From: Polyangiaceae bacterium
GTDB lineage: Bacteria; Myxococcota_A; Polyangia; Polyangiales; Polyangiaceae
Length of the DNA stretch: 40,480 nt
Assembly: GCA_020849655.1 (NCBI GenBank)
Contig: JADLFU010000110.1
Location: 1 to 40,480 of the forward strand
Direction: 5' to 3'
The notes beneath the pieces are model-generated. The model was not told the origin of the DNA. It saw nothing but the letters and a program-made list of their open reading frames with translations, and did no database searches. Shown piece by piece: positions 2,372 through 40,480 of the stretch; positions within the stretch are counted from its first letter, which is position 1; each line of letters begins with the position of its first letter. The position numbers were made by a program, and so were the translations under genes.

Positions 2372-2399
2372 CGGGGCGCGCCGGCGGGTAGGGCGCGAA

Positions 2400-2430: not shown

Positions 2431-2437
2431 GCGCCGC

Positions 2438-22145: not shown

Positions 22146-22156
22146 CCGCTCCGCCG

Positions 22157-24448
22157 TCAGGGCTTCGGCTCGGTGCAGAACCCGTTCACGCACTGATAGC
22201 CGTCCGCGAACCCGCAGCACTCGTTGGCGCTGCCGCACTTGGCGCCGGTGGGCTTGCAGGTCTGGTCGGGCGGGGTGCCGCACTTGTTGGTCGAGGGCAG
22301 GCACGTGAGCCCCGTGCAGCACTCGGACGCGGCGCCGCAGCCCGCGCCCTCGTCCTTGCAGGCGTCGAGCGCCCAGTAGCCGCGCATGTTCAGCGTCGTC
22401 AGCTCCTGGCCCGGCACCCACACCGCGGGGTGGCTGGGATCCTTGCCCGCGGCGGGGCTCTGGTCGATCGGCGCGAGCCACAGCTGCTTCGTGCCGCAGC
22501 CCTCACCGCACGACGCCTGGCCGGTGAGCGCGTTGCCGTACGTGCGGCGCGAGTGGAACACGATCCAGTAGTACCCGCCGGCCGCCTGGGGGGCGATCGT
22601 GGGCTCGAAGTTCAGGTCGCGGTCGCGGGCGCCGGCGGCGAACGGGTAGGAGGCTCCGTTGAGGCTGTCGAGGGCGATCTCCACGCCGGGGTTCTCGACG
22701 CTGGCCATGTAGAGGTTGCCCACCGAGCCCACCGACCCGAGCGCGCTGCCGCGCTGGTAGACCACCCACTTGTGATCGGGCGTGACGGAGGCAAACAAGA
22801 TCCAACTGAGCTTCGGATCGGCGCCAGGCTGCACGAGCACGCGCTCGTTCGTGGCTTTTCTCGCGACGGGATCCCAGTCCATCACGGCGAGCGCGCCCGG
22901 GCTGCCCTGGGTGTACGCGAGGAGCTTGTTGTCGGGGGAGAACGCCGGGTTGTGGAGCTGCTTGCCCTCGAGGCCCGAGCTCGGGATGGGTTGCGCCGTC
23001 ACGGCGTCGAAGGCGCCCGTGTCGACGCCCACGGGCCCGCGGATGGGGGAGAAGTTCTGGACGAGCACCGCGCCGTCCGCGCTGATGGCCGCCTGGGCCC
23101 AGCGGGACGCGCCCGAGCCTCCGGACGGATAGCCCGAGTACGTGGTGCTCTGCCCGAGCAGATCGAAGTTGTAGGACGACTCCTGCGGCCAGTTGCCGAC
23201 GTTCATGATGAGTGACTTGCCGTTCGCGCTCACCGTGTGGCACGACGGGCAGGCCATCCCCTGGGGCTGCAAGAAGTCCTCCGCTTGTTGCCCCGGCTTG
23301 ATGCGCATGACCCGGCCGGTGTTGATGGCCCAGTAGTACACCGTGCCGCGCAGGGCGCCGCTCGCCGCGTGCCAGGTCTGCTTGGCGATCTCCGTCGCGC
23401 CCGGCGCCCCGGGCGCGAGGCTGGTCACGCGGAACTGGATGGGCCCGCCCTTGCCCGACTCGAGCAGCCCCGTCCAGACGTCCTCGGGCAGCGTGAAGGC
23501 GCCCTGGCTGGGCTTCGAGTAGGCCTTGATCGACGTGAACGCCGAGGTGAAAGTGAACGCCAGCTCCTCGCCCGGGGTGTGCGTCCACATCACGCGCGGC
23601 GACGACAGCCCGCGGGGGAAGATGCTCTCGTCGTACGGATACAGCAGCGGTCCGCCGCCGCTGCCGGTCGGCGTGTCGAGCTTCGTCTGGCTGCCCGGCG
23701 GGACGTCGCCCGCGCCGAGCGTCGTCTGGATCTTGACAGTGAGCTTCGTGTCGGCGGTGAGGCCCTTCCAGGTCGCGACGACGGTCTCCTCTCCGCCGCT
23801 CTTGCCGCTCGCGGTGACGAGGCCGCCCGCGCCGATGGTCGCGAACGAGCCGGGCGAGATCTTCCACGTCGCGTCGCCGAGCGGCTGGCCGATCGATCCG
23901 TCCGAGTACACGACGCGCGCGGTGTAGCTCTGCGTCGCGGCCTTGCCGTCGACGACGGTGATCGTCGCCGAGCCCGGCGTGATCACGAGGCTCAGCGGCG
24001 TGGGCTGCGCCGCGCCCGCCGTCCCGGCCGCGCCGCTCGCGCCCGCCGAGGCCGCCGCGCCCGCCTGCCCACCTCCGCTCGCGCCTGCTTGACCTGCCTT
24101 TCCGCCGCTCGCGCCCGCGCCGCCGCTCGCACCAGCGCCGCCGCTCACACCCGCGCCGCCGCCCGCGCCGCCGCCCGCGCCCGCGGTCCCCGCCTGTCCG
24201 GCCTGCGCCTTGCCCGCGCTCCCCGCCTGCGCCGCCGCGCCGCTCGCGCCCGCCTTCGCGCCGCCCACGCCGCTCGCGCCTGCCTTCGCGCCTGCGCCGC
24301 CCGCGCCGGCCGCCGCCTTGCCCCCGCCGCCGCTCGCGCCCGTCTGCCCTGCCGCCGCGTCGCCGGGGGACGTGCCCTCCGATCCCGAGCCGCCGCAGGC
24401 GAGGGGGAGCGCGACAGCGAAGGCGAGCAGGCGAGGAAGGGTCTTCAT
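22157..24448 (-). CDS. Large lipoprotein: Gly/Ala linker, Ig-like domain, CxxCH and beta-propeller
   Basis: A 763-residue lipoprotein (lipobox PLAC, Cys18). Residues about 20-145 are a Gly/Ala/Ser-rich stalk. Residues about 150-235 look like a bacterial Ig-like (BIG2-type) domain, ending before a linker. A CPSCH motif (Cys400, Cys403, His404) matches a c-type haem site or a cytochrome-like module. WD40/TolB-like propeller blades follow (AAISADGAVLVQN, NPAFSPDNKLLAYTQG, VTPDHKWVVYQRG). The C-terminus carries two small Cys-knot repeats (CGAASECCTGLTC and CGSANECCGFADGYQC). It is likely surface-exposed. The ATG at 24448 begins the signal peptide, and TACTCT lies 8 bases upstream. Confidence 0.8.
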   Translation of the reverse strand: MKTLPRLLAFAVALPLACGGSGSEGTSPGDAAAGQTGASGGGGKAAAGAGGAGAKAGASGVGGAKAGASGAAAQAGSAGKAQAGQAGTAGAGGGAGGGAGVSGGAGASGGAGASGGKAGQAGASGGGQAGAAASAGASGAAGTAGAAQPTPLSLVITPGSATITVVDGKAATQSYTARVVYSDGSIGQPLGDATWKISPGSFATIGAGGLVTASGKSGGEETVVATWKGLTADTKLTVKIQTTLGAGDVPPGSQTKLDTPTGSGGGPLLYPYDESIFPRGLSSPRVMWTHTPGEELAFTFTSAFTSIKAYSKPSQGAFTLPEDVWTGLLESGKGGPIQFRVTSLAPGAPGATEIAKQTWHAASGALRGTVYYWAINTGRVMRIKPGQQAEDFLQPQGMACPSCHTVSANGKSLIMNVGNWPQESSYNFDLLGQSTTYSGYPSGGSGASRWAQAAISADGAVLVQNFSPIRGPVGVDTGAFDAVTAQPIPSSGLEGKQLHNPAFSPDNKLLAYTQGSPGALAVMDWDPVARKATNERVLVQPGADPKLSWILFASVTPDHKWVVYQRGSALGSVGSVGNLYMASVENPGVEIALDSLNGASYPFAAGARDRDLNFEPTIAPQAAGGYYWIVFHSRRTYGNALTGQASCGEGCGTKQLWLAPIDQSPAAGKDPSHPAVWVPGQELTTLNMRGYWALDACKDEGAGCGAASECCTGLTCLPSTNKCGTPPDQTCKPTGAKCGSANECCGFADGYQCVNGFCTEPKP

Positions 24449-24456
24449 GGCCGGTG

Positions 24457-24462
24457 AGAGTA
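24457..24462 (-). promoter_or_regulatory. Putative -10 box for the gene at 24448
   Basis: TACTCT on the minus strand ends 8 bases before the ATG, consistent with a leaderless transcript. No good -35 is seen. Confidence 0.3.
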
Positions 24463-24523
24463 GCGCAAGAAGCGTCGAACCGGCGCCCCTCCGTCGCCTC
24501 TCCGTCGCCTCGTGACAGCGGGC

Positions 24524-25372
24524 TCACACCTCGTCGACCTGGTCTGTCAGGCGCCTGAGCCAGCCCGTGACCGTGCGCTCGAGGCCCGGCGAGAGCGCCG
24601 CCTGGTCGTCCCGGCGCCACGCGAGCGCGCGCGTCAGCAGCTGCTCCTCCGCCGCGACGACCTCCGCGTGGAGCGCGGCGACCGCGCCCTCGTCGTCCGC
24701 CGTGGCGCCCGGCGGCGGGTCGATCGCCGCGCCCGCGAGGAAGTAGAGCTTCACCGGCAGCGGGAGCGGGCCGAGGCCCAGGTAGAGCGGCGTCACGTAC
24801 TTGTCACCGAGGGCCCGTGACACCCACTTTCCGAACAGCGTCGCGCGGACGCCGTCGGCGTCGAGCAGCTGGCGGTACAGCTCCTCGCTCCCGACCACCG
24901 CGAGCGGCACGATCGGCGCCTGCGCGCGCAGCGCGGCCTTCACGAAGCCCACGTGCCCGCCCCAGAAGAGCCGGTACCTGTCCTCCGATGCCGCGAGAGC
25001 CTCCCTCGCGCCCCCGGGGCAAGCCCAACATAGTTCACCACGTGACAGCAAGAGCTGCGCGTTCTCCGGGGTGCCGTCGACGCCGCCCAGGCGCCCGAGC
25101 GCGCGGCGCTGCGGCAGGGTGGCGTAGAGGACGTGGTCGCCCAGGCCGCGCAGCGGGCGGCGCGCGGCGTCCCAGACGCCCACCGACAGCGCGGCCGACT
25201 CGAGCGCGAACAGCCCGTGGTTCGACACCGTCAGCAGGCCGCCCGGTCGGCGGTAGACCTCGAAGCCCCGGTACTCCGGCCGAAAGTAGCGGGCGAGCGC
25301 CCGACCGCGGGCCATCGCGCGCTCGAACGCTCGGAGATCGAGGGGCCAGCCCTCCGTCGCGGGATCTCGCAT
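24524..25372 (-). CDS. Lysophospholipid acyltransferase-family protein (TMEM68/DGAT2-like)
   Basis: A 282-residue protein of the PlsC/LPLAT superfamily. The catalytic motif appears as SNHGLFALES (His52 with Glu58, in place of the usual H-x4-D). The second block is CPGGAREAL (119-126), like the PGG-x-E motif of DGAT2 and TMEM68-type acyltransferases. FVKAALRAQAPIVPLAVVG is the typical third block. It should transfer fatty acyl groups to a glycerolipid or alcohol at the membrane; the acceptor is unknown. The ATG at 25372 was chosen by the start of recognisable sequence. It is divergent from the FHA-sigma54 activator, about 100 bp away. Confidence 0.82.
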   Translation of the reverse strand: MRDPATEGWPLDLRAFERAMARGRALARYFRPEYRGFEVYRRPGGLLTVSNHGLFALESAALSVGVWDAARRPLRGLGDHVLYATLPQRRALGRLGGVDGTPENAQLLLSRGELCWACPGGAREALAASEDRYRLFWGGHVGFVKAALRAQAPIVPLAVVGSEELYRQLLDADGVRATLFGKWVSRALGDKYVTPLYLGLGPLPLPVKLYFLAGAAIDPPPGATADDEGAVAALHAEVVAAEEQLLTRALAWRRDDQAALSPGLERTVTGWLRRLTDQVDEV

Positions 25373-25475
25373 CGGTGGCGCGTCGTTACGAGGCGGAGGG
25401 GCGGCTGTAAAGGGGGCCGCGACGCGCTCGAGCGACAGGGTTGTCGGGCGCGCCTCCCCGCGCGAGCCTGGGCCG

Positions 25476-26798
25476 GTGACGAGGAGCAGAGACGAGGTCA
25501 CGACGCCGCTCGCGCCGCCGCCGCCTGCGCGCGCGCTCGACGCCCGGGCGCGCGTCATCGAGCCGGCGGGGCTCGCGCGACCGCTCACCCTGCGCCCGGC
25601 GCAGCCGGTGATCGTCGGCAGCGACGCCACGGCCGACTGGGTGCTCGCCGACAAGACGGTGTCGCGGCGGCACGTCGAGCTGGAGCTCGGTCCAGAGGGC
25701 GTGCGGGTGCGCGATCTCGGGAGCCGCAACGGGACGCACGTCGCCGAGCACAGGGTCGAGCAAGCGCGGCTCGCGCTCGGCGTGACGCTGCGGCTCGGGC
25801 GCGTCGTCGTGGCGCTCGACGTGGATCCCGCGACCGTCGCGGCGTCGCCGTCCCACGACGCCGACACCTACGAGCGGCTCACGTGCCGCTCGCCCGCGAT
25901 GAAGCGCGTGGCGGGCGTGCTCGCGCGCCTCGAGGCGTCGCTCGTGACCGTGCTCATCGAGGGCCCGAGCGGCGTGGGCAAGGAGCTGGTCGCGGAGGCG
26001 ATCCACGCGAGGTCTCCGCGCGCGGCGGGCAAGCTCGTGTCGCTGAACTGCGGCGCGCTGCCCCGCGAGCTGGTCGCGAGCGAGCTGTTCGGGCACGTGC
26101 GCGGCGCGTTCACCGGCGCGGGCGAGGCGCGCCGGGGCGCGTTCGAGGCGGCCGACGGCGGCACGCTGTTCCTCGACGAGATCGCCGAGCTCCCGCTGGA
26201 GGTGCAGCCCGTCTTGCTCCGCGCGCTCGCGACCGGGGAGGTGCGCAGGGTCGGCAGCGACGCCGTGACGAAGCGCCACGCGCGCGTCCTCGCGGCGACC
26301 AACCGCGATCTCGTCGAGGAGGTGCGCGCCGGGAGGTTCCGTGAGGATCTTTACTATCGCCTCGCGGTGATCCGCGTGACGGTGCCGCCCCTGTCCGAGC
26401 GGCCGGAGGACGTCGCGCCGCTCGCGCGCGCGTTCGCGGCCGAGGCGGGCGTCGAGCTGCCGCCGTCGGTGTCGTCCGCGCTCGAGGCGGCCCGCTGGCC
26501 TGGCAACGCGCGCGAGCTGCGCAACGCGGTGCAGGCGTACGCGGTGCTCGGGCACGTCCCGGAGTCAGCGTGCGCGCGAGGCGACACGCTCCAGGCCGCG
26601 CTGCGGGCGTGGCTCGATCCGCGGCGACCGTACGCCGAGCAGAAGGAGGCGCTGCTCGAGCTGTTCGCGAGGGACTACCTCGCCGCCGTGCTCGCGCAGA
26701 CGCGCGGCAACGTCTCGGCGGCCGCGAAGGTCTCCGGGCTCGATCGCGGGTGGGTCGCGAAGCTCGCCGACAAGCACAAGCTGCGCGATCCAGGGTGA
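25476..26798 (+). CDS. FHA-domain sigma54-dependent transcriptional activator
   Basis: A 440-residue regulator. The N-terminal FHA domain (about 30-112) has SRRH (63-66) and GSRNGT (82-87), which bind phosphothreonine peptides. The AAA+ domain (about 135-370) has Walker A GPSGVGKE (163-170), the sigma54-contacting GAFTGA loop (210-215), Walker B FLDEIAELP (232-240) and WPGNARELRNAV. A short Fis-like helix-turn-helix is at about 408-436. It should activate sigma54 promoters in response to a Ser/Thr kinase rather than a histidine kinase. The GTG at 25476 is the only suitable start. A sigma54-like site lies two genes downstream at 27747. Three Ser/Thr kinases in the window are candidate partners. 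Confidence 0.92.
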   Translation: MTRSRDEVTTPLAPPPPARALDARARVIEPAGLARPLTLRPAQPVIVGSDATADWVLADKTVSRRHVELELGPEGVRVRDLGSRNGTHVAEHRVEQARLALGVTLRLGRVVVALDVDPATVAASPSHDADTYERLTCRSPAMKRVAGVLARLEASLVTVLIEGPSGVGKELVAEAIHARSPRAAGKLVSLNCGALPRELVASELFGHVRGAFTGAGEARRGAFEAADGGTLFLDEIAELPLEVQPVLLRALATGEVRRVGSDAVTKRHARVLAATNRDLVEEVRAGRFREDLYYRLAVIRVTVPPLSERPEDVAPLARAFAAEAGVELPPSVSSALEAARWPGNARELRNAVQAYAVLGHVPESACARGDTLQAALRAWLDPRRPYAEQKEALLELFARDYLAAVLAQTRGNVSAAAKVSGLDRGWVAKLADKHKLRDPG

Positions 26799-26828
26799 GC
26801 CCGCTATCCTGTCTCCGCCTTGCGGACG

Positions 26829-27743
26829 ATGCTGAGAGCGATCGGCGTGCTCCTGGCGGCGACCGCCGCCGCGCGCGCGGCCGACGCGCCCCCGCTCGCG
26901 GTCGCGCGCCCCGCGGAGGCCGCGTCGGTCGCCGAGGCGCTGTTCGTCGAGGGGCGCAGGCTGATGGAGGCCGGGCGCCTCGACGAGGCGTGCGCGAAGC
27001 TCGACGAGAGCCAGCGCCTCGATCCGGGCGGCGGCACGCGGATGAACGCGGCGCTCTGCCGCGAGCGACAGGGGCGCCTGGCGACGGCGTGGGCACAGTT
27101 CAAGCTGGCGCTGAGCGACGCCCGCGACGATCGGCGCGACGATCGCGTCGCGTTCGCCGAGCAGCACCTCACCTCGCTCGAGCCTCGCCTGCCGCGCGTC
27201 GTCGTCACCGTCGGCCAGGGCGCCCCGGGCGCGTCGGTGCTGCTCGACGGGCTCGCGCTCGGCCCGGCGGCGCTCGGCGTCGCCGTCCCCGTCGATCCCG
27301 GGCGCCACGAGGTAGTCTTGCGCGCCGACGGCAGCGCGCCGCGCGTGTTCACGTTCGACGCAAAGGAAGGCGTGACCACCCGGCTCACGCTCGAGCCGGC
27401 CGCGCGCGACCACGCGCGCTCCACTCGTCAGCAGCGGGGACTGTTCTCCGCGTCCGCGGGCGCGGCGGCGGTCGTCGCGGGCGGCGCCTTCCTGCTCGTG
27501 GCGCGGTCGCGCCAGGCCGACGCGGACCGCGTGTGCCCCGGCACCTCGTGCTCGGCCGCGCAGGCGGGCGCGGTGGACGACAACGCCTCCGCGCACCGGT
27601 GGGCCCGCGCCGCGGACGTCGCGTTCGTCCTCGGCGCCGCGGGCCTCGCGGTGGGCAGCTACCTCATCGTCACGAGCGGCCCCGCGGTGTCGGCCAGCGC
27701 CGGCCCGGGCGGCGGCTTCGTCGCGCTGTCGAGGAGGTTCTGA
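26829..27743 (+). CDS. Exported TPR-like membrane protein with PEGA-like domain
   Basis: This 304-residue protein has a signal peptide (LLAATAAARAADA) and a TPR-like region (about 33-90, LFVEGRRLMEAGRLDEACAKL). One PEGA-like beta domain (about 118-180, VLLDGLALG) follows, then two hydrophobic helices (about 204-222 and 265-285) around a short Cys-containing loop. The order of parts is that of the longer protein at 11908. ATG 26829 is used; TTG at 26820 (three codons earlier) is an alternative. TATCCT lies at 26805-26810. It follows the FHA-sigma54 activator by 30 bp and may be cotranscribed. Confidence 0.78.
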   Translation: MLRAIGVLLAATAAARAADAPPLAVARPAEAASVAEALFVEGRRLMEAGRLDEACAKLDESQRLDPGGGTRMNAALCRERQGRLATAWAQFKLALSDARDDRRDDRVAFAEQHLTSLEPRLPRVVVTVGQGAPGASVLLDGLALGPAALGVAVPVDPGRHEVVLRADGSAPRVFTFDAKEGVTTRLTLEPAARDHARSTRQQRGLFSASAGAAAVVAGGAFLLVARSRQADADRVCPGTSCSAAQAGAVDDNASAHRWARAADVAFVLGAAGLAVGSYLIVTSGPAVSASAGPGGGFVALSRRF

Positions 27744-27745
27744 CA

Positions 27746-28852
27746 GTGGGCATGAGGGTTGCTTGGCCTCCGGCGTTCATGCGATCACTCTGGGGGGTGT
27801 GTTGGGTTTCTCTCGCGGGGTGCACCGCGGCCGCGCTCGATCTCGACGACAAGCGCGTCGCGGAGACGCACACGTCGAGCGCCGGCGCGCCGGGCGGAGG
27901 GGCCGCGGGCCACGGGGCGGCCGGCGCGCCGGGTGGGGGAGGCGCGAGCGGCGCCAGCGGGCACGCCGCGCAAGCAGGGCAGGGGGGCGAGGGAGGCCAA
28001 GCCAACCAGGGAGGCCAAGTCAACCAGGGAGGCCAAGTCAATCATGGAGGGCAGGGAGGCCAGGTCGACCAGGGAGGTCAGGCGGGGCAGGCGGGCGCGG
28101 CGTGCGGGGGCGGCGATCCGCGCGCGGTCGCGCTGTCCCTGGGCCCTCAGCTGTACTTCCCCCTCGACGATCCTCCGGGCGCGCCGACGGTCGCGGAGCT
28201 GGTCGGAGGGGTCGACGGCCTCGTCGTCGGCGCGGGCGTCGCGCTCGGCGCGCCTCCGGCGTTCGCGTCGGCCTCCAACCAAGGAGCGGCGCGCTTCACG
28301 CCGAGCGCCGTCGGCGCGGGCGTGCGCGTCGGCGGCGCCCTCGATCTCGGCGCCGGCCCGTACACTGTCTCGCTGTTCCTCCGGGTGCGGGGCGACGCCG
28401 GGTGTGTGTACGCCTTCGCCAAGCAGACGTTCTGGGACGAGGGGCTGGGCACCAACGGAGGCACGTCGCTGCACCTGCGCTGCGGCGGCTCGCCGACGCT
28501 GCTGTTCAACCGCGTGCCGACGTCCCAGGTCGAGGCGCTGGGGGAGTACGTGAAGCCTCCGCTCCCCGCGCCCGAGGTGTGGACCCACGTCGTCACCCGC
28601 TACGATCCGACGCAGCTGAAGGGCATGCGGGTGTTCCTCGACGGCGCGCCGTACGAGGGCGCGTCGTCGAGCGGGCTCTCGGGCGGCAGCGTCTCGACGC
28701 CCGCGCCGCTGATGCTCGGCGCCGCGGGGCGCACCACCGGCGCGCCCTTCAACACCCTCCAGGGAGATCTCGACGAGGTCGCCATCTACACGCGCGCGCT
28801 CGACGATCAGGAGATCCGCGCGATCGCGTGCGCCGCCGGCCTCGGGCCGTGA
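27746..28852 (+). CDS. Lipoprotein with LamG/concanavalin-like domain
   Basis: A lipoprotein of 368 residues, or fewer from later starts. The lipobox is SLAGC. A low-complexity linker rich in Gly, Gln and Ala (repeats of QVNQGG, about 28005-28090) leads to a C-terminal LamG-like beta-sandwich. The domain shows the typical YFPLDD, VSLFLRVRG, WTHVVTRYD, MRVFLDG and GDLDEVAIYTRALDDQEI segments. Such domains bind carbohydrate or protein ligands on the surface. GTG 27746 has AGGAGG 8 bases upstream, at the 3' end of the previous gene. ATG 27752 and ATG 27779 are alternatives; the last gives the tidiest lipoprotein signal and would follow a sigma54-like site. Confidence 0.8.
   Translation: MGMRVAWPPAFMRSLWGVCWVSLAGCTAAALDLDDKRVAETHTSSAGAPGGGAAGHGAAGAPGGGGASGASGHAAQAGQGGEGGQANQGGQVNQGGQVNHGGQGGQVDQGGQAGQAGAACGGGDPRAVALSLGPQLYFPLDDPPGAPTVAELVGGVDGLVVGAGVALGAPPAFASASNQGAARFTPSAVGAGVRVGGALDLGAGPYTVSLFLRVRGDAGCVYAFAKQTFWDEGLGTNGGTSLHLRCGGSPTLLFNRVPTSQVEALGEYVKPPLPAPEVWTHVVTRYDPTQLKGMRVFLDGAPYEGASSSGLSGGSVSTPAPLMLGAAGRTTGAPFNTLQGDLDEVAIYTRALDDQEIRAIACAAGLGP
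27747..27763 (+). promoter_or_regulatory. Sigma54-like -24/-12 element
   Basis: TGGGCATGAGGGTTGCT resembles the sigma54 consensus TGGCACG-N4-TTGCW. GG at 27749-27750 and GC at 27761-27762 are separated by exactly 10 bases. Initiation would fall near 27774, just before the ATG at 27779. It overlaps two other candidate start codons of the same gene. Confidence 0.35.
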
Positions 28853-28859
28853 CCGCGCG

Positions 28860-30599
28860 CTACTCGATGTCCGGCGGGGGCGGCGCGATCGCGATGAGGT
28901 TCAGGCCGCCCGGGTACTGGTAGCTCGTGTAGCTGCCGTAGCCCATCACCTGCAGCCCGACGGGTTTGTCAGACTCGAGCGTGTGCGCGCCCTTCTGGCC
29001 CGCGCCTAGCTTCACGCGGGCGACGCCGAAGCCGGACGAGATGGCCGTCGGCTTCGCGGTGATCGGCGCGCCGTCGAGCTTGACCGACGCGCCGTCCGGG
29101 ATGAGCAGATCGGCGTACGACACGTCGTAGTCGTCGGGCGCGAGGAACACATACTTGGTGCGGAACTGCTCGACGGCCGTCACCATGCTCATCGACGGAT
29201 CGCCGAGCTCCTTGCCGGCGCCCGCGCTCGGATCGAGCACCTCCGCGCCTGGCATGAAGGTGCCCACCGCGAACTCGTGATCGCCCTCGACCTCGAAGCT
29301 CGTCTTCACCGTGCCCGACAGCTCGACCACCTGACCGGCGTTGATGGTGGACGGCGCGTTGGCGGGCTTCGAGGGCTTGTAGGTGAGCTGCGTGCCGTCG
29401 ACGTTGCCGTAGATGCGCACGATGTGCCCCGGCGCGTTGCCCCTCGGGCCGGTCATCGGCGAGACGAAGTAGCGCTTGCCCAGCGTCTCGGCCGGGAACA
29501 CCGTCTCCTCCAGGTGATCACACGCCTGCACGCCGTCGGGCGCCTGCGCGCACGGCATGCCAGTCAACACCTGCACCGGCGCCGTCGCCTGCACGAGCGA
29601 GCCGGAGAGATCCGCGGAGGCCTCGCCGACGAGCTCGAGCACGTCCCCCTTGTTGACGGTGAAGCTGACGACCGCGCCCGCGCCGGCCGCCGCGATCCCC
29701 GCGCCGCCGAGCACCTTCGCCGTGCCGGAGAGCTTCACCTTCACCTGGGTGCCGTCGGCCGTGCCGGTGATGACCATGTACGCGCCCATGTTCGCCGCGG
29801 GCCAGCCCTTGCGGATGGTGACGCGGTAGTTGCCAGTCATCGCCGTCGAGGGCAGCAGGATGGAAGCGTCGTTGCTGAAGGAGAAGCAGCCGATCTTCGT
29901 GCCGTAGCTCGGGGACGCGATGTTGTCGCAGGCCTTGTTGCCCGCGCAGCTCGCCCAGCTCTTGCCGGGGGGGCCGCCGGCGCCTTTGTACTCGAGCGCG
30001 TTGAACTGGTAGACGGTGACGGGGCGGGTCGAGGTGAGGTGGTACGCGCCCTTCACGGCGCCGAGGGTCCCGCCGAGCGGCTTCGCGGTGCCGCAGCTGT
30101 CGGCGTCGCCGCCCTTCAGCGCCGGCACCCACGGGAGGTAGATCTTCTCGAGGCTGTTCGGCGCGACGGTGACCGTCTGCCCCACCTTCGTGCCGCCCTG
30201 CTCGACCTCGACGTCGGCGGGCTCGTTGCCGGCGTTGGCGACGATGACCGCGAAGTCGAAGGACGACCACACGTTGTTCGCCGTGACGGTGGGCCAGTAG
30301 TCGCACCCGACGTACGATTTCAGCGAGGCCGCGCCCTCGCAGGTGTTCGGGTCGCCCGTCGGAGGCTGCACGCCGCCGCCCGCGCCCCCGGCGTTGAACG
30401 CGCCGCCCTTGCCGCCCTGCGCGCCGCCGCCGGCCTGCCCGTCGCCGCCCTGCGCGCCGCCGCCCTGCGCGCTCGCGCCCGCGCTCTCCGAGTCGTCGAA
30501 CTTCGATCCCGAGGCGTTCCCGCCGCACGCTCCGACGACGGCGGCGAGCGAGAGGCAGAGCAGCGGCACGACACCACGGATCGGGGAGAAGCTTCGCAT
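28860..30599 (-). CDS. IgGFc-binding-domain-like lipoprotein
   Basis: A 579-residue lipoprotein with signal ending VGAC (Cys25). A Gly/Gln/Ala linker (about 40-80) is followed by a long domain with the layout of the bacterial IgGFc-binding N-terminal family. Typical segments are VANAGNEPADVEVEQGG, VTVAPNSLEKIYLPW, HLTSTRPVTVYQFNALE, AYMVITGTADGTQVKV and VQVLTGMPCA. These are beta-rich repeats named after a mammalian mucin-like protein; in myxobacteria they are presumed surface or adhesion proteins. Cys pairs suggest disulphides. It is convergent with the LamG lipoprotein (7-bp gap). TA-rich boxes lie directly before the ATG at 30599. Confidence 0.82.
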   Translation of the reverse strand: MRSFSPIRGVVPLLCLSLAAVVGACGGNASGSKFDDSESAGASAQGGGAQGGDGQAGGGAQGGKGGAFNAGGAGGGVQPPTGDPNTCEGAASLKSYVGCDYWPTVTANNVWSSFDFAVIVANAGNEPADVEVEQGGTKVGQTVTVAPNSLEKIYLPWVPALKGGDADSCGTAKPLGGTLGAVKGAYHLTSTRPVTVYQFNALEYKGAGGPPGKSWASCAGNKACDNIASPSYGTKIGCFSFSNDASILLPSTAMTGNYRVTIRKGWPAANMGAYMVITGTADGTQVKVKLSGTAKVLGGAGIAAAGAGAVVSFTVNKGDVLELVGEASADLSGSLVQATAPVQVLTGMPCAQAPDGVQACDHLEETVFPAETLGKRYFVSPMTGPRGNAPGHIVRIYGNVDGTQLTYKPSKPANAPSTINAGQVVELSGTVKTSFEVEGDHEFAVGTFMPGAEVLDPSAGAGKELGDPSMSMVTAVEQFRTKYVFLAPDDYDVSYADLLIPDGASVKLDGAPITAKPTAISSGFGVARVKLGAGQKGAHTLESDKPVGLQVMGYGSYTSYQYPGGLNLIAIAPPPPDIE

Positions 30600-30738
30600 C
30601 GGGTAGAGGTATCACGCGCGCGGGCGGCGGGCACAGGGGGGAAGTGGGGGAGTGTGAAGAATGTTGTGCCAGGGGAGCGCGAGCCCCGAGGCGCCAGGGG
30701 CATCGCGCGCGCCGCCGCGGCCGTGGTACGCGCGGCGC

Positions 30739-32220
30739 ATGCTCGACCCCGCGACCTTGCTGACCGAGAGCGCGACCCGCCTCGCCGCGCGCATCCGCGG
30801 CGGAGAGGCGCGCGCGCGGGACATCGTCGACGCCCACATCGAGCAGCTCGAGCGCGCGAACCCTCGGCTCAACGCGGTGGTCGAGACGCGCTTCGCCGAG
30901 GCCCGCGCGGAGGCTGACGCCGCGGATGTCCGCGCCAGGGCCGGCGCGCCGGCCGGGCCGCTCGACGGCGTCCCGTGCACGATCAAGGAGTGCTTCCGGC
31001 TGACGGGCATGCCCAACACCTCGGGCCTCGTCGCGCGTCGCGGGATCGTCGCGCGCGACGACGCGACGACCGTGGCCCGCCTGCGCGCGGCCGGGGCCGT
31101 CCCGCTCGGCGTCACCAACACGAGCGAGCTCTGCATGTGGATGGAGAGCGACAACCGGGTCTACGGCCGCACCGGCAGCGCGCACGATCCGACCCGCACC
31201 GCGGGCGGCAGCTCGGGCGGCGAGGGCGCGATCGTCGGCGCCGGGGCGAGCCCGTTCGGCCTGGGCTCCGACGTCGGCGGGTCCATCCGGATGCCCGCGT
31301 TCTTCAACGGGGTGTTCGGTCACAAACCTACCGGTGGGCTCGTGCCCAACTCCGGCCAGTACCCCGTGGCGAACCCGGGCCCGATGGAGCGCTACGTGGT
31401 GACGGGCCCGCTCGCTCGCCGCGCGGAGGATCTCTTCCCGCTGTTGCGGATCCTCGCCGGCCCGGACGGGCTCGACGGCGGCGCGCGCGCGCTCTCGCTC
31501 GGGGATCCTTCGCACGTCGATCTGCGCGGCCTCGTGGTGCTCGACGTGCGCGAGAAGATCGCGTGGCCGGTCTCGGACGAGCTGCTGGCGGCGCAGGAGC
31601 GCGCGGCGTGGCTGCTCGCGGCGCGGGGCGCGAAGGTGAAGCGGGTGCGCCTGCCTCGCCTCTCCTCGGGGCTCGAGATCTGGTCCGCCGCGATGAGCGC
31701 CGGCGGCGGCGCCTCGTTCGCGGAGCTGCTGGGCGACGGTCGCGCGGTGCGCGCTGCGCCTGAGCTCGCGCGCTGGCTCGCGGGGCGCAGCCCGCACACG
31801 CTCCCGTCGATCGGGCTGGTCGCGCTCGAGAAGGCCACGAAGCTGCTCGGCGAGCGGAACCTCCGCGCGCTCACGCTCGGCCGCGAGCTGAAGGCGGAGC
31901 TCGACGAGCTGCTCGACGATCGCACGGTGATGCTGCTCGCGCCGCACGCCACCGTCGCGCCGAAGCATGGCCACGCGCTGTTGCCGCCCGTGAAATGGGC
32001 CTACACGGCGGTGCTGAACCCGATGCTCCTGCCGATCACGCAGGTGCCGCTCGGGCTGTCGCGCGACGGCGTGCCGCTCGGCGTGCAGGTCATCGGCGGC
32101 GAGGGGCGCGACCACGTCACCATCGCCGTCGCGGAGGAGCTCGAGCGCGCGCTCGGAGGCTGGACGATGCCCGCGTGGCTGCGCTCGTCCGCCGCCTCGC
32201 GCGGGCGGATCAGACGTTGA
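30739..32220 (+). CDS. Amidase-signature enzyme, FAAH-like
   Basis: A 493-residue amidase-signature protein. The Ser-cisSer-Lys triad is visible: Lys83 in CTIKE, Ser158 in GGSSGGEGA and nucleophile Ser182 in GSDVGGSIR. The Ser158-Ser182 spacing of 24 equals that of fatty acid amide hydrolase (Ser217-Ser241). GHKPTGGLVP also follows the FAAH pattern. It should hydrolyse an amide; a lipid or other hydrophobic amide is plausible but unproven. It lacks the context of gatB/gatC, so it is not the glutamyl-tRNA amidotransferase subunit. The ATG at 30739 is closest to the family start, and TACGCG lies 7 bases upstream. Its last 11 bases overlap convergent ychF. Confidence 0.88.
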   Translation: MLDPATLLTESATRLAARIRGGEARARDIVDAHIEQLERANPRLNAVVETRFAEARAEADAADVRARAGAPAGPLDGVPCTIKECFRLTGMPNTSGLVARRGIVARDDATTVARLRAAGAVPLGVTNTSELCMWMESDNRVYGRTGSAHDPTRTAGGSSGGEGAIVGAGASPFGLGSDVGGSIRMPAFFNGVFGHKPTGGLVPNSGQYPVANPGPMERYVVTGPLARRAEDLFPLLRILAGPDGLDGGARALSLGDPSHVDLRGLVVLDVREKIAWPVSDELLAAQERAAWLLAARGAKVKRVRLPRLSSGLEIWSAAMSAGGGASFAELLGDGRAVRAAPELARWLAGRSPHTLPSIGLVALEKATKLLGERNLRALTLGRELKAELDELLDDRTVMLLAPHATVAPKHGHALLPPVKWAYTAVLNPMLLPITQVPLGLSRDGVPLGVQVIGGEGRDHVTIAVAEELERALGGWTMPAWLRSSAASRGRIRR

Positions 32221-33313
32221 ACCGGAAGTGCATCACGTCGCCGTCGCGGACGACGTACTCCTTGCCCTCGGTCGCGAGCTTGCCCGCGTCGCGGCACCTC
32301 GCCTCGCCGCCGAGCGCGACGAAGTCCTCCCACCAGATGACCTCGGCCTTGATGAACCCCCGCTCGAAGTCGGTGTGGATGACGCCGGCCGCCTGCGGCG
32401 CGAGCCAGCCCTTCTTGATGGTCCACGCGCGCACCTCGACCTTGCCGGCCGTGAAGTACGTCGCCAGCCCGAGCAGCTCGTAGCCCGAGCGGATGACGGC
32501 GTGCAGCCCGGGCTCGGAGAGGCCCGCGCTCTTCAGGAACTCGGGGCGGTCGGCGGGATCGAGCTCGGCGATCTGCGCCTCGAGCGCGGCCGAGATCGGC
32601 ACGACGCTCGCCCCCTCCTTCGCCGCGTGCGCGGCGAGCGCCTGGACGTGCCGGTCGGCGAACGGGTCGGCGAGCGCGGCCTCGCTGACGTTGGCGACGT
32701 AGAAGATGGGCTTCGCCGTCAGGAGCCACATCTCGCGCAGCACGGTCGCCGAGTGAGGATCGTCGGGCGCGGCGAACGTGCGCGCGGGCTTGCCCGAGTC
32801 GAGGTGCGCCGCGAGGGGCTCGCACAGCGCGATGGCGGCCTTCTCGAGCGGGGAGTTGCCCTTCGCGAGCTTCTTCGCGCGCTCGAGGCGCTTCTCGACG
32901 CTCTCGAGATCCTTCAGGATGAGCTCGGTGTCGATCGTGGCGACGTCGGCGACCGGGTCGACGCGGTTGTCGACGTGGATCACGTTCGGATCCTCGAAGC
33001 AGCGGACGACGTGCGCGATCGCGTCGACCTCGCGGATGTGGCTGAGGAACTGGTTGCCCATCCCCTCGCCCTGCGACGCGCCGCGCACGAGCCCGGCGAT
33101 GTCGACGAACTTGATGCTCGTCGGCACGACGCGATCGGGCGCGACGATCCTGGCGAGCGCGTCGATGCGGTCGTCGGGCACCGGGATGAGCGCGACGTTC
33201 GGATCCTTCGTGCAGAAGGGGTAGTTGGCGGCCTCCGCGTGGCCTCCGAGCGCGTTGAAGGTGGTGCTCTTGCCGACGTTGGGCAGGCCGACGATGCCGC
33301 ACGCGAATCCCAT
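32210..33313 (-). CDS. ychF: Redox-regulated ATPase YchF (Obg family)
   Basis: A 367-residue YchF/OLA1 protein of normal length. It has the P-loop GLPNVGKST near the N-terminus, DIAGLVRGAS (G3), and NVSE in place of the NKxD specificity motif, the change that makes this group prefer ATP. A coiled region and the C-terminal TGS-like domain end in VRDGDVMHFRFNV. It binds ribosomes and takes part in stress responses in other bacteria. The ATG at 33313 starts the family's MGFACGIVG sequence. It is divergent from the third Ser/Thr kinase, about 75 bp away. Confidence 0.95.
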   Translation of the reverse strand: MGFACGIVGLPNVGKSTTFNALGGHAEAANYPFCTKDPNVALIPVPDDRIDALARIVAPDRVVPTSIKFVDIAGLVRGASQGEGMGNQFLSHIREVDAIAHVVRCFEDPNVIHVDNRVDPVADVATIDTELILKDLESVEKRLERAKKLAKGNSPLEKAAIALCEPLAAHLDSGKPARTFAAPDDPHSATVLREMWLLTAKPIFYVANVSEAALADPFADRHVQALAAHAAKEGASVVPISAALEAQIAELDPADRPEFLKSAGLSEPGLHAVIRSGYELLGLATYFTAGKVEVRAWTIKKGWLAPQAAGVIHTDFERGFIKAEVIWWEDFVALGGEARCRDAGKLATEGKEYVVRDGDVMHFRFNV

Positions 33314-34567: not shown

Positions 34568-34674
34568 GCCACGAGAGCGCGGGGCGCGCGTCCGACGCGT
34601 GACCTCCACCGCCCTTCCTGCGGCGCCAACGGCCGCTTCCACAGCCACGCGGGTCGGAGCGAGGTGTTCCTCGT

Positions 34675-35445
34675 TCACGGTGCGCTCCAGTCGTGAACGA
34701 GCCCCGCCTCGATCAACCCCAACCACTGCCCCGCCAGGTAGCTCGCGAAGCTCGCGTCCTCGATCAACACCCCCACCTCGATGTTCCGCTCCTGCCCGCG
34801 CTGCGTGAAATTCGCGCTCGACACGAACGCCCTCACCCCGTCCACCACCACGCACTTCGCGTGCAGGCTGCACCACGGCGGCCCCGGCTGGAGCGCCCGC
34901 TTGTCATAGTAGATCCTCGGCCGAGGCTCCCCGAACGGCCAGTTGTCCTTCAAGAACGCCCCCAGGTGCGCGGCCAGGTGCGCCTCCTGGGCCACCCCTC
35001 GCTCGATCTGCGGCACGTCCACGAAGAACCGCGTCTCCACCGCGTGCGCCGCCATGGCGCCGTGCAGCGGCGCGAGCACGTCGCGGGCGTGGTCGAAGCT
35101 GTACCCAGCCAACACGACGCTCTCCCGGGCTCCCTCGAAGAGGGCACGCAACACCACCGCGGTGTCCCGCGCCGTCCCCGCTGACGCCTCGGGCCCCGTC
35201 CACACGAGCTCGGGCGTGGGCTTCCGGTCCTCGCGCTCGGCCAGCGTCACATGGAGCACCGCGAGGCACGCAGCCGTCTTGTGCCCGGCGAGCGCGCCCT
35301 CGATCGCGTCGAGCTGGTGCCGCACCCCGAACCCGACGAGCGATGCCCGGTCGACCGGCGGCCGCAGCAGGCCCGACGCGACCGCGGCGCGGAGCTGCTC
35401 GAGCACCGTCGTGCTGACCTGCTTGAGGCTCGCCCGCTCAGCCAT
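34675..35445 (-). CDS. drmC: DISARM protein DrmC (phospholipase D-like)
   Basis: A 256-residue protein with a single HKD motif, H195-A-K197-x4-D202, followed by SSANFTQRGQERNIEVGVLI. This is the phospholipase D-superfamily active-site block; only one copy is present, so a dimer would form the full site. The N-terminal part is helical (LKQVSTTVLEQLR), and VVLAGYSF starts the PLD-like sheet. This length and pattern fit DrmC of DISARM, where it is the least essential core gene in tested systems. Its ATG at 35445 overlaps the drmB stop (TGATG). An upstream extension of the open frame was rejected because it lies inside drmB. Confidence 0.9.
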   Translation of the reverse strand: MAERASLKQVSTTVLEQLRAAVASGLLRPPVDRASLVGFGVRHQLDAIEGALAGHKTAACLAVLHVTLAEREDRKPTPELVWTGPEASAGTARDTAVVLRALFEGARESVVLAGYSFDHARDVLAPLHGAMAAHAVETRFFVDVPQIERGVAQEAHLAAHLGAFLKDNWPFGEPRPRIYYDKRALQPGPPWCSLHAKCVVVDGVRAFVSSANFTQRGQERNIEVGVLIEDASFASYLAGQWLGLIEAGLVHDWSAP

Positions 35446-37328
35446 CACGGGCTCTCGCGGAAGAACGCGAGCTCGGGATCGTTGCCGATCGTGGGGACGA
35501 CGAGCGCTCGATCCAAGAAGCGGTTGAAGCGCTCGCACGAGCACTCGGCGATGTACAGGCACCCGTGACACGCGGCGCCCTCGGTCCGCCGGTCGCTCGA
35601 GGGCGAGCTGGGATCGTGGGCCGCGCAGACGGGATCGTTCGAGCAGAGCCGCCCGAGCTCCCACGCCTCGCGCAGGTGGTGACGGAGCCGGCGCCCTTCT
35701 TCCACGAGACCACCGAGCGTGCCCTCGCTGCCCGTCGTGCCGGTCGTGAGCATGACGGCGGCCATGTCGGGGCCGTCGGCCTCGGACTGGCCACAGTACA
35801 GGCGCTCACGGATCGCGCTGGCCGCGTACCCGCACTCGAGGCTCACCGCCGTCAGCAGCAGGTGCGACAACGAGTGCAACAAGAAGAACCGAACACCAGG
35901 GAACTCGCCGTCGGCGTCGGCCTCGAAGGCCTTCAACAACAGCTCGGCGCGGGCCTTCACGGCAGGCCGCTCCTCCCATGCCCGCACGGCCTCGAGGTCG
36001 AGCTCGACGAACACCCCCTCGCCGCGCACCTCGGCCGCGGGGAGCCACTTCTCGTTCCCGTTGGGCAGCGTGAGCACGGCGGGCTTCACGCTCCGCGCGT
36101 CCGGATCGAACTCGCCCTGGAAATCCGGGCTGACCGAGTCGAACCGGCTGAAGCTCATCTGTACTCGGACCTCCCGCAGCTCGGGGACGATCACGAGCCC
36201 GCGCACCCCGGCGGGCAGGATGACCTTGTCCTTCGGGATCCGGTAGGCGGCGAACTGCGCGCCGGCGTCGGGGACCATCCCGGGCTGGTAGCTGGGCGCC
36301 GTGGTGAGGCGCTCGTACTCCGCGCTGCGCAGGGGGCGCCCGGCCGTCGCGTCCGCGGACTCGTTCTCGGCCTTGATGGCCGCGAGGACCTTGTCGGGCG
36401 CGTGGCCCTGCACGGCGCTCGCGACGTGGTCCATGAGCTTCATCGCGAAGGCGAGGTCGCCCGCGCTCTCGATCTTGTGCACGGCCTTCCAGACGTCCTT
36501 CTCGCGAACTCGCAGCCGCAGAGGATCGGGCAGCGGGTCCGGCAGCCGGAGCGCGCTGACGACCTGGGAGAAATAGGCGTGCGACGCCGTGCGGACGAGC
36601 AGCTCGCTCTTCTGGTCGCAGCGCTCGTTGGTGGCGCGCCCGCCGAGCCAGGGGCGATCTCCGCTGCACGGGTACGGGAGCACGCTCGCCTTCGCCATCG
36701 ACGTGCTGGAGTGGCAGTTCCGACATTCGACGTAGATGGTGGCGATGTCACCGAGGGACTTTTCGATGAGGTACAGCTCCTGCCGCTCGCAGATGCCGCC
36801 CTCGCGGTCCATGTGCGCGAACGGCACCCAGGGGAAGTCAGACAGGTGGCCGCGCTTGCAGGCTGCCACGAAGCGGACGGGCACCGCGCTCGACCACTTG
36901 TTCTTCGAGCACTCGTGTCGGTAGCGGCCGCTCTTGTTCTCGAAGCCATCTACGGCACGGGCGAGGCGTCGGCACCCCTGGCACACGAACCACCGCGGGA
37001 ACTCGAGCGCCCGGATGCCGACGCCGTGGAACGGATCGCGAGAGTCTCCCTCGGGTGGCATGCGGAAATAGCCCTCGCGAGCGAGATCGAGATCCGGGTC
37101 CAGGGCCTTCAAGCGCGGCAGGAGGGACCGGCGGAGGCGCGCGTCGTCGAGCGCGACGAAGCCCTCCTTTCCGTAGCCCCAGTGCTCGAGGCCGCCGATC
37201 ACGACGGCGCGATCGACGAGGTCCACCATCGCGCCGGGCCCGAACGTGGTGACGAGCTGACTCTGGCGGAGCTGCCCCTCGGGCCGCGCCACCTTCCTGC
37301 CATCGAGCTTCTTCCGTACCTGCGCCAT
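35445..37328 (-). CDS. drmB: DISARM protein DrmB (DUF1998)
   Basis: A 627-residue protein with the DrmB opening RQSQLVTTFGPGAMVDL (about 21-37). Zinc-type Cys clusters lie at CQGC (116-119), C140, C157, CRNC (202-205) and C221. A C-terminal DUF1998 region (about 480-627) has FFLLHSLSHLLLTA, then CSNDPVC, CHGC (587-590) and CSC (596-598). DrmB pairs with the DrmA helicase in DISARM, which restricts incoming unmodified phage DNA; biochemical work on other systems places DrmA-DrmB in one DNA-binding complex. The ATG at 37328 was chosen over a start 36 bases earlier because it overlaps the drmA stop (TGATG) and begins MAQVRKKLDG. Confidence 0.93.
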   Translation of the reverse strand: MAQVRKKLDGRKVARPEGQLRQSQLVTTFGPGAMVDLVDRAVVIGGLEHWGYGKEGFVALDDARLRRSLLPRLKALDPDLDLAREGYFRMPPEGDSRDPFHGVGIRALEFPRWFVCQGCRRLARAVDGFENKSGRYRHECSKNKWSSAVPVRFVAACKRGHLSDFPWVPFAHMDREGGICERQELYLIEKSLGDIATIYVECRNCHSSTSMAKASVLPYPCSGDRPWLGGRATNERCDQKSELLVRTASHAYFSQVVSALRLPDPLPDPLRLRVREKDVWKAVHKIESAGDLAFAMKLMDHVASAVQGHAPDKVLAAIKAENESADATAGRPLRSAEYERLTTAPSYQPGMVPDAGAQFAAYRIPKDKVILPAGVRGLVIVPELREVRVQMSFSRFDSVSPDFQGEFDPDARSVKPAVLTLPNGNEKWLPAAEVRGEGVFVELDLEAVRAWEERPAVKARAELLLKAFEADADGEFPGVRFFLLHSLSHLLLTAVSLECGYAASAIRERLYCGQSEADGPDMAAVMLTTGTTGSEGTLGGLVEEGRRLRHHLREAWELGRLCSNDPVCAAHDPSSPSSDRRTEGAACHGCLYIAECSCERFNRFLDRALVVPTIGNDPELAFFRESP

Positions 37329-40300
37329 CAGCCCCTCTCGTCCAGTTGCTTGAACCGCAGCCACACGTGCACGCTCGGCTCGACATCACGCATCGACGTC
37401 GGCGCCTGGAAGGCCCGCGCGTCGTGGTCGATGGGCGGGTCGTCGCTGGCCGTGAACAGGAGCGCGGTGCCCTTGCTCTCGGCGCGGTCCATCCGGCTGT
37501 ACGTGCGGCTGGCAGCGCCGGTCTTCGCCTTCTCGGCCACGCGCTCCCACGCGTCGAGGAAGCTCCTGCCGCGGGCGCGCACGAGATCGGCGATGCGGCC
37601 CTCGGCGTCGTCGTCGTGGAAGAAGCGGTGCCCGCGAGCACGAGCGACCATCCACGTCAGGAGCTGCTCGGCGGCCGAGCGTTGCTCGTGGATCTGCATG
37701 ACGCCAGTGGGGCCCTCCATGGCCGGGATGCCGTGGCGGATCATCGACAGCATCGCGCCGACGAGCCCGCGATCGAGCGCCTGCCCGCTGAACGGCGTGA
37801 CGCTCGTGGCCTCGACCTCTCGGTAGAAGCTCTCGTGGTACGAGACGAAGCGCTCGTAGTGGGAGCGATCGCGGGGCCGCATGACGTGGAGGCACGCGAC
37901 GACGAGCCCGGGGTACTGACGCCCGACGCGGCTCGTCGCCTGGATGTACTCGCTCGAGGTCCTGGGTTGGCCGGTGACGACCATCAGCCCGAGCCGATCG
38001 ATGTCGAGGCCGACCGAGATCATGTTCGACGCGAGCACGACGTCGAGCGGCTCCGGCTCGGTGGAGGTGCGCCGGGCCGCGAGCCGCCGCTTCGTCTCCT
38101 TCACGCGCTCGGTGCTCTCGCGTGACGTGAGCTCCGCCGGCATCTTGGGCTTCCGGTCCTTCGCCCACGGGTGGGGGCCGATGAACATGCGCGGCCGCTT
38201 CTCGTGCTCGATCTCCTTCACGCGGTTCGCGACCTCGTCCTCGACGAGGCGCCGCATGCCGCCGAGCTCACGGAGGCTGTTGAAGTACCCGACCAGCGTC
38301 ATGTACGGATCGGCTGGCTGGTTGGGCTCGCCCCTCGAGTCGTAGTGTCTCTCGGCCGCTGCGAGCAGCGTCGCGTACGTACGCACGGACACGGCACGCA
38401 GGGCGCGCCCGGGCGCGCCGCCGCCGAGGTAGAGGCGGCCGGGCGCGGTCCGGAGCACCGTCGAGAAGAAGTTGTCGCCCTCGTCGATCCCGCGCGGGGG
38501 AAACAAGCTCATGGGCCGGCCGAAGAGGGCCTGGATCTGCTCCCGGGCACGACGGACCGTCGCGGTCGAGCACACGACCTTCGGGGGCCTCGCGGCGCCG
38601 CCGACGGCGCGCTCGCACAGGAAGTCCACGGCGGCCTCGTAGAGGCCCACCATGGTGCCGAGCGGCCCGCTGATGAGGTGCAGCTCGTCCTGCACGATCA
38701 GCTCGGGAGGCAACAGCCCCTCGGGCAGCGAGCGCGCCGTCGCCGGCGGATCGTGCATGACGCCGTACGCGCGATCGTCGTCCACGTGGGTGGCGCGGCC
38801 GAAGAGCATCCCGGCGTCACCCCGCCACGGCATCATGGCGAACTTGTCGACGGTCGCGACCACGAAGCTCGGGACGTCCTGGTAGATCTGCTCGTCCACG
38901 AAGAGCACGGGCAGCCCGAGGCCCGGCACCTTGGCCTCGGTGAACAGACAGCTCGTCTTGTCGCAGTACACGGCGACGCGCGCGAAGTTCTTCTTCGTGG
39001 GTTTGCCCTCGGCGTCGACGAGCTTGATGTTCTGGATCTCGATGGTGTCGCCACACCACGGGCAGCTCGTGAGCGGGAACGGAGAGTCCGTCCTGCCCGA
39101 GGTGTAGTCCGACAGCGCCTGGTGCACGTCCTTCAGCTTGTTGGCCGTGGCGCTCGCCCCGACCCACAGGCCGATGGTGAAGCGCGCGTTCCCGAGCTCG
39201 GCGGGGTACTTCGAGCGCAGCTGCTCGAGCGTGCACATCAACGTGGCCGCGCGGCCCAGCTGATCGAGGGTGAGCAGGCGCAGGGTGTACCGGAGCAACA
39301 CCGCGACGCCGCGGCCCTCGTGGAACGTCCCTTTCCCGCGCATCCGCCGGAGCAGCAGCACGAACGCGATGAGCCCGAGGTACGCCTCGGTCTTTCCGCC
39401 GCCCGTCGGGACGTAGATGAGCTCGGCGAGCTTCCGATCGGCGTGCGTGGGATCGACGACCGACGGCAGGTTCATCAGCACGAACGCGAGCTGGAACGGT
39501 CGCCACTGGGGTTGTCTGCCACCCACGTAGCGCCGGTCCTCGCGGATGCTGTCGGCCTGCACCGCGGACACGTGCATCGCCTGGTTCATCAGCCCGAACG
39601 CGCGGAGCGCCTGCGGATCCTTGCCGAGCAGCGCGATGCCCTCCGCGATCCTCGCCTTGGCCCTGTCGGCCTTGGCCATCAGATCGTCGCGCGTCGTCTC
39701 GAGCGCGGGCCGGTCGAGCTGCGTGTACCGCTGCTGATCGATCCATCTCCCGTAGGCCTCGACGAGCGGTGCCAGCGCGTTCCCGAGCCCCTTGCCGTCG
39801 AGCTTGGCGAGATCGGCCATCCCGAACGTCGCGTCCTCCACGGGCCGGTGATCGACCCGCGGCACCTCGAACCGGGGGAGCGCCGTGGTCACGATCCGCG
39901 TGACCTTCTCGGTCTTGCGCTCCACCTGCTGGACGCTCGTGTTGTGCCCGACCGCCCACTCCATGTGATCGCGGAAGAGGAGCGCGAGGACGCGCTGATC
40001 CTCGTCGGCCGCGTCTTCTCCGCGTCGATTGGGCCGGCACACGAAGCCGCGCTCGAAGGTCAGCGCCATCTTCACCTGGAAGGCGAACTGGAGGTCCCGG
40101 TCCTTCTCGATCGAGCCGCGATCGTTCACGAGGAAGATCGAGAGGACGCGCGTGCCGTCCTTCAGCCCCGCCATCGTGGTGGTGCGGAGCTCGCCGCGGA
40201 GCACGAGGCCCCGCGAGCCCGGCACCGGGATGCCGTCCTTGTGCTGCACGACGCGCGGGTCGAGCGGGACGCTCACGCGCACGGGGCCGTGGGGCACGCG

Positions 40301-40480
40301 CTTCCAGCCGGGCTTCTTCTTCTCCTCGCGATCGACCGCGACCTCGATCTTGTCGTAGTCCGCGTACCAGACGTCGACCTCGATCGCGTCGCCGCTCCCC
40401 GGCGGGAGGAACACCGAGAGCCCCATCGACGCCGGGAACCGCACCGGACGCTTCGGCTCCGGCTCCTCGGTGCCGGCGTC
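37328..40480 (-). CDS. drmA: DISARM helicase DrmA (5' end beyond the window)
   Basis: A large superfamily 2 helicase. Counting from GTG at 40444, it shows Walker A VPTGGGKT (345-352), Walker B QDELH (585-589), CSTATVRR (motif III, about 625), SNMISVGLDIDRL (motif V, about 806) and QATSRVGR (motif VI, 835-842). A Cys pair set (CPWC at 461-464 and CDKTSC at 494-499) looks like a zinc site inside the helicase. This order and the drmB neighbour identify DrmA. The frame remains open for 12 more codons to the window edge without a stop. The true start is probably outside, and an N-terminal part is missing from view. It is the first visible gene of drmA-drmB-drmC. Confidence 0.93.
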   Translation of the reverse strand, partial: DAGTEEPEPKRPVRFPASMGLSVFLPPGSGDAIEVDVWYADYDKIEVAVDREEKKKPGWKRVPHGPVRVSVPLDPRVVQHKDGIPVPGSRGLVLRGELRTTTMAGLKDGTRVLSIFLVNDRGSIEKDRDLQFAFQVKMALTFERGFVCRPNRRGEDAADEDQRVLALLFRDHMEWAVGHNTSVQQVERKTEKVTRIVTTALPRFEVPRVDHRPVEDATFGMADLAKLDGKGLGNALAPLVEAYGRWIDQQRYTQLDRPALETTRDDLMAKADRAKARIAEGIALLGKDPQALRAFGLMNQAMHVSAVQADSIREDRRYVGGRQPQWRPFQLAFVLMNLPSVVDPTHADRKLAELIYVPTGGGKTEAYLGLIAFVLLLRRMRGKGTFHEGRGVAVLLRYTLRLLTLDQLGRAATLMCTLEQLRSKYPAELGNARFTIGLWVGASATANKLKDVHQALSDYTSGRTDSPFPLTSCPWCGDTIEIQNIKLVDAEGKPTKKNFARVAVYCDKTSCLFTEAKVPGLGLPVLFVDEQIYQDVPSFVVATVDKFAMMPWRGDAGMLFGRATHVDDDRAYGVMHDPPATARSLPEGLLPPELIVQDELHLISGPLGTMVGLYEAAVDFLCERAVGGAARPPKVVCSTATVRRAREQIQALFGRPMSLFPPRGIDEGDNFFSTVLRTAPGRLYLGGGAPGRALRAVSVRTYATLLAAAERHYDSRGEPNQPADPYMTLVGYFNSLRELGGMRRLVEDEVANRVKEIEHEKRPRMFIGPHPWAKDRKPKMPAELTSRESTERVKETKRRLAARRTSTEPEPLDVVLASNMISVGLDIDRLGLMVVTGQPRTSSEYIQATSRVGRQYPGLVVACLHVMRPRDRSHYERFVSYHESFYREVEATSVTPFSGQALDRGLVGAMLSMIRHGIPAMEGPTGVMQIHEQRSAAEQLLTWMVARARGHRFFHDDDAEGRIADLVRARGRSFLDAWERVAEKAKTGAASRTYSRMDRAESKGTALLFTASDDPPIDHDARAFQAPTSMRDVEPSVHVWLRFKQLDERG

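Follow-up and report, generated by a model that had tools for sequence, protein, structure and literature searches.

The segment 34675-40480 of the window is a genuine DISARM core, an ordinary copy of a known defence; we read it, with a probability of about 0.9, as the three core genes drmA, drmB and drmC of a class-1-type DISARM whose drmA runs off the contig; the genome is myxobacterial (Polyangia-like). The window, that is, the whole 40,480-nucleotide stretch analysed here, is the complete contig C110 (G000:C110) of a 6.56-Mb, 307-contig genome bin with a contamination estimate of 4.17%; because it is a whole contig, the truncation of drmA is one of assembly and not a visible mutation. Gene identity, gene order, start/stop overlaps, intact motifs and foreign-like composition are all directly supported in the window. 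A sequence-only reading of this DNA had described three co-directional genes joined by two TGATG overlaps, and this arrangement is borne out on the minus strand of 34675-40480, beside the two chromosomal-looking genes, ychF and a kinase, that it had placed next to drmC:

37328-40480, minus strand: drmA, SF2 (YprA-like) helicase, open to the contig end, 1050 residues visible (PADLOC, 7s9v_A, N-termini of relatives)
37326-37330, minus strand: TGATG overlap of the drmA stop and the drmB ATG start (sequence)
35445-37328, minus strand: drmB, DUF1998/MZB zinc protein, 627 residues, stop at 35445 (PADLOC, PF09369 MZB, 7s9v_B)
35443-35447, minus strand: TGATG overlap of the drmB stop and the drmC ATG start (sequence)
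34675-35445, minus strand: drmC, PLD-family protein with a single HKD motif, 256 residues, stop at 34675 (PADLOC, PF13091, predicted fold)
34568-34674, no strand: 107 bp of intergenic sequence separating drmC from the convergent kinase gene, presumed edge of an acquired segment
33389-34567, plus strand: Ser/Thr kinase
32210-33313, minus strand: YchF

The starts given in the open reading frame listing (37364 for drmB and 35664 for drmC) are in-frame GTG codons upstream of these overlaps and are not likely starts.

The assignment of the three genes as an SF2 helicase (DrmA), a DUF1998 protein (DrmB) and a single-HKD PLD protein (DrmC) is supported by profiles, by alignments to 7s9v and by motifs. 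The PADLOC profile search suggested for checking it matched DrmA, DrmB and DrmC with E = 2e-263, 6.3e-74 and 4e-103, respectively, and did not place the genes in another helicase/DUF1998/PLD system, so that the DISARM core assignment holds. Among solved structures, phmmer aligned the visible DrmA with Serratia 7s9v_A (6.7e-187) over residues 14-1039, nearly its whole visible length, and DrmB with Serratia 7s9v_B (6.7e-78) along nearly its whole length. A different helicase/DUF1998/PLD system such as Druantia, Dpd, ARMADA or MrfAB could be considered, as a YprA-like helicase is common to all of them and a DUF1998 module to most (PMC12458937). In ARMADA, Druantia and Dpd, however, any DUF1998 module typically forms a fusion with the helicase, whereas the window has a separate drmB gene; DISARM is the system in which OB-CON-DUF1998 makes up a gene of its own (PMC12458937). 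In addition, PADLOC gives exclusively Drm models for DrmA and for DrmB, and the YprA/MrfA structure reaches only 8.5e-05 with the window DrmA in phmmer, against 6.7e-187 for the DrmA structure. We regard another system as extremely improbable and retain the DISARM assignment.

The active-site motifs, claimed from the letters to be intact in all visible parts, are so in each of the three proteins (helicase motifs, DrmB zinc cysteines and DrmC HKD):

39389-39409, minus strand: DrmA Walker A, PTGGGKT (sequence motif)
38675-38689, minus strand: DrmA motif II, DELHL (sequence motif)
38558-38569, minus strand: DrmA STAT motif (sequence motif)
37919-37942, minus strand: DrmA motif VI, QATSRVGR (sequence motif)
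35559-35645, minus strand: DrmB four-cysteine zinc site (C562, C568, C587 and C590), aligned with Serratia DrmB C559/565/581/584
34840-34863, minus strand: DrmC catalytic motif HAKCVVVD, one HxKx4D (sequence motif)

Alignment to the Serratia complex shows that K803 and R810, DNA contacts that were mutated in PMC9142583, are kept in the window system. DrmB also matches PF09369 MZB and DrmC matches PF13091, and both drmB and drmC have full-length open frames. The catalytic residues H195, K197 and D202 of DrmC are invariant in 13 DrmC sequences, and its predicted model (mean pLDDT 86) resembles the bacterial nucleases Nuc (1byr) and NucT (6ehi) and other PLD-family proteins.

A close known counterpart is the class 1 DISARM of Serratia sp. 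SCBI (DrmAB, 7s9v/7s9w; PMC9142583), which shares with the window a near-full-length alignment and the catalytic, DNA-contact and zinc residues. Serratia DrmA has a trigger loop at residues 176-232 (PMC9142583). Relatives of the window DrmA carry, N-terminal to the core, an acidic linker (PDAEDRDSTDD..AGSESQAEDAG) that is conserved among them and aligns with this loop. Compared with full-length relatives, about 77 N-terminal residues of the window DrmA are missing and the visible part begins at about residue 78; judged from the same relatives, most of the acidic linker falls in the missing part. DrmA of the window clade differs from the Serratia protein in being about 150 residues shorter at the N-terminus. 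In all myxobacterial DrmA copies where FPASMG was found this motif is preceded by 76-100 residues, against 230-242 in the Deinococcus and Microvirga copies. An EVE-like N-terminal domain has been reported for class 1 DrmA (PMC12458937); neither the long nor the short DrmA forms gave an EVE match in a Pfam scan, and given the 76-100 residues before FPASMG, such a domain does not, judged by length, seem to fit the myxobacterial DrmA lineage.

By analogy with the solved Serratia complex, it is proposed that DrmA and DrmB form a helicase heterodimer, which the acidic trigger loop close to the N-terminus of DrmA would keep inactive. The loop would be displaced by incoming unmodified DNA that has a free single-stranded 5' end, and the ensuing ATP-driven translocation would block phage replication; DrmC or another nuclease may then degrade the invading DNA. 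Host DNA would be marked by the adenine methyltransferase DrmMI, whose gene is expected upstream of drmA, beyond the contig end. Our literature search found no functional data on any myxobacterial DISARM, and the activity of the window system is predicted from this analogy.

A DISARM operon includes a DNA methyltransferase gene, drmMI or drmMII, and class 1 is defined by drmMI together with drmD, which encodes an SNF2-like helicase. Neither drmD nor drmMI is present on the contig, their expected position lying beyond its end. Among the 18 nearest loci (DrmA 66-81% identical), drmMI lies upstream of drmA in 14; L008 has a drmMI remnant, and L011, L014 and L138 offer too little upstream sequence. 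With drmMI upstream in these relatives, class 1 is the likely assignment of the window locus, and drmD and drmMI are probably present upstream of its drmA. The gene drmD is seen in close relatives where that region is visible, and also on contig C254 of the same bin, beside a different drmA allele. In the class 1 systems of Sorangium cellulosum So0157-2 and Polyangium fumosum DSM 14668, DrmA is 79% identical to that of the window and drmMI lies upstream of drmA, as a remnant only in one of the two P. fumosum loci. Class 2 DISARM is characterized by drmE and drmMII; it shares the drmABC core and differs in that the close relatives of the window locus have drmMI and, where visible, drmD. Most DrmMI proteins of the window clade (L003:4406-8521 and relatives) carry a Lys/Ala-rich tail closing in QxxLF (QKKLF, QGKLF or QGELF), which we take to resemble a sliding-clamp binding motif.

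The window could instead hold a partial and possibly inactive DISARM, with drmABC and without intact drmD and drmMI. The second of the two P. fumosum loci (L008) is a precedent: it retains a drmMI remnant only, about the last 63 residues, ahead of cargo and drmABC, and thus drmABC can occur without an intact methyltransferase gene adjoining. We consider this unlikely for the window, as drmMI is upstream in 14 of the 15 nearest loci whose sequence reaches far enough in that direction, the visible motifs are all intact, and DrmB and DrmC are encoded in open, full-length frames. A class 1 locus continuing beyond the contig end is the reading we keep.

A second DISARM piece in the same bin, C254 (L003, 9653 bp), holds, one after another, drmD (its 3' part), drmMI, a gene for a Schlafen/AlbA_2 protein, PDC-M31A (AAA_21 ATPase), PDC-M31B and drmA up to codon 117; the AlphaFold model of M31B (two sequences, mean pLDDT 35.9) was not usable. 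C254 and the window might be taken as halves of one operon, in which drmD-drmMI-SLFN-M31A-M31B-drmA(5') would be joined to drmA(3')-drmB-drmC: they are the only DISARM pieces found in the bin, are nearly complementary, have ends in drmA that lie no more than about 120 bp apart, and have a similar G+C (0.698 and 0.7005). Where the two drmA sequences overlap, however, just 59 of 78 ungapped bases are identical and the longest shared exact string is 11 bases, which indicates two alleles; two loci in one isolate do occur, as in P. fumosum. The join was rejected on this ground: with a different drmA allele, C254 is not the missing half of the window operon, and a single operon is very improbable. 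C254 represents a second DISARM system of this genome, or else it stems from a second strain or contaminant in the bin. The window end at 40480 and the start of L003 lie in the same roughly 120-bp region of drmA in these different alleles, and no assembly reason for this was found.

The composition of the segment supports its acquisition. Its G+C is 0.7005, against 0.739 for the rest of the window, and every 5.8-kb window of 1-34567 exceeds it (minimum 0.719). The sequence-only reading had expected a junction near 34568-34674, and this stretch is a plausible boundary of the presumably acquired segment. A scan of 34568-34674 gave nothing resembling a terminator or promoter, and no tRNA was found in the window. 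A same-genus genome (G001) has a YchF 96% identical to that of the window and gave no DrmA match; as G001 has a completeness of 84% and the contig that matches stops within the kinase gene, the insertion edge stays an expectation. The continuation of that contig could not be identified among the 126 kinase matches of G001, and the more distant YchF neighbourhoods examined revealed no DISARM gene. Elsewhere in the window, about 8.6 kb (22106-30721) have no counterpart at the corresponding position (7988 to 8081) of L100, a contig from the same genus; this may be an insertion or deletion.

The joint between drmMI and drmA is a variable cargo slot in Myxococcota DISARM. Joint lengths were measured by tblastn on loci from Myxococcota genomes, a joint of at least 500 bp being counted as filled; the counts include related genomes and are not independent events. 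On this scale the drmMI-drmA joint is filled in 36 of 46 loci (median 2.3 kb, range 0.8-11 kb), compared with 4 of 34 drmD-drmMI joints, 0 of 69 drmA-drmB joints and 0 of 62 drmB-drmC joints; L110, L012 and L137 are among the loci without cargo. Slot genes were called by a simple composition-based caller whose score includes the G+C of the first and second codon positions. The modules differ between close relatives, and many are of defence or toxin-antitoxin type. Septu PtuA-PtuB occupies the slot of L007, with homologues 72% and 57% identical in Sorangium cellulosum L017, and PDC-M31A/B are found in the slots of L003 (350-4392), L008 and L011, the last of which also holds AAA and RhuM (PDC-S05). 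Other contents include an M78-peptidase protein with a short gene downstream (L016), M78 and PIN (L019), DUF433 and PIN_10 (L112) and an HD-domain protein (L107), and some slots hold genes without evident defence role (L006). Across 94 slot ORFs, AAA_21 and AAA_15 are the most frequent Pfam families (7 each), and AAA_22, M78, DUF433, PIN_10, Fic and PDDEXK_7 have two to four members each. S. cellulosum So0157-2 carries Septu PtuAB in this position and P. fumosum PDC-M31 or unrelated genes, whereas the corresponding slot of the window locus is off the contig. In plasmid records from other phyla or classes, the slot is filled in Methylocystis, Sinorhizobium, Microvirga and Thiodictyon and empty in Nostoc C057, Sphingomonas and Deinococcus. 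A literature search that did not cover the original 2018 DISARM paper found no report of cargo inside DISARM.

Two plasmid loci show other arrangements. In L180, a Sphingomonas parapaucimobilis plasmid, the cas3 and casA genes of a type I-E CRISPR locus flank a drmD-methyltransferase-drmA-drmB operon. In L184 (17356-17902), a Pseudanabaena plasmid, a BrnT/BrnA toxin-antitoxin pair lies between drmB and drmC, the one such case seen.

Several loci carry signs of exchange at the slot. Between the Schlafen-like gene and PDC-M31A, L003 has a fused remnant (2337-2466, minus strand) in which 24 bases of the drmA start are directly followed by about 130 bases of the drmMI end, the latter 90% identical; it looks like a recombination scar, the joint expected from tandem insertion of a unit bounded by the drmMI end and the drmA start. 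The isolate P. fumosum DSM 14668 has two loci, L006 and L008, with unrelated cargo; they are 92.8% identical over the 6040 bp that begin some 20 bp ahead of drmA and include drmC, and 89% identical over 184 bp of the drmMI end. L008 also has a second, diverged drmMI-like tail ahead of M31A (read by eye, not scored), and in L112 a drmMI piece, 79% identical, lies just before drmA. An imperfect-repeat array follows the drmMI 3' remnant of L008 (1487-1960). From these remnants and flanks we infer that cargo may be exchanged by recombination through flanking homology.

We lean slightly towards a broader proposal, in which the stretch between drmMI and drmA would be a built-in exchangeable bay of class 1 DISARM: small modules of defence or toxin-antitoxin type would be swapped there as complete units by recombination through the flanking drmMI 3' and drmA 5' ends, the core and a changing second-line module would be inherited together, and the window DISARM would have such a module upstream of drmA. 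The window locus adds a myxobacterial member to known DISARM, from a short-N-terminus DrmA lineage unlike the sole solved structure. If the slot is general, reading what lies between drmMI and drmA would be a direct route to new small defence modules, and the slot would make it possible to test whether one operon can carry two layers of defence.
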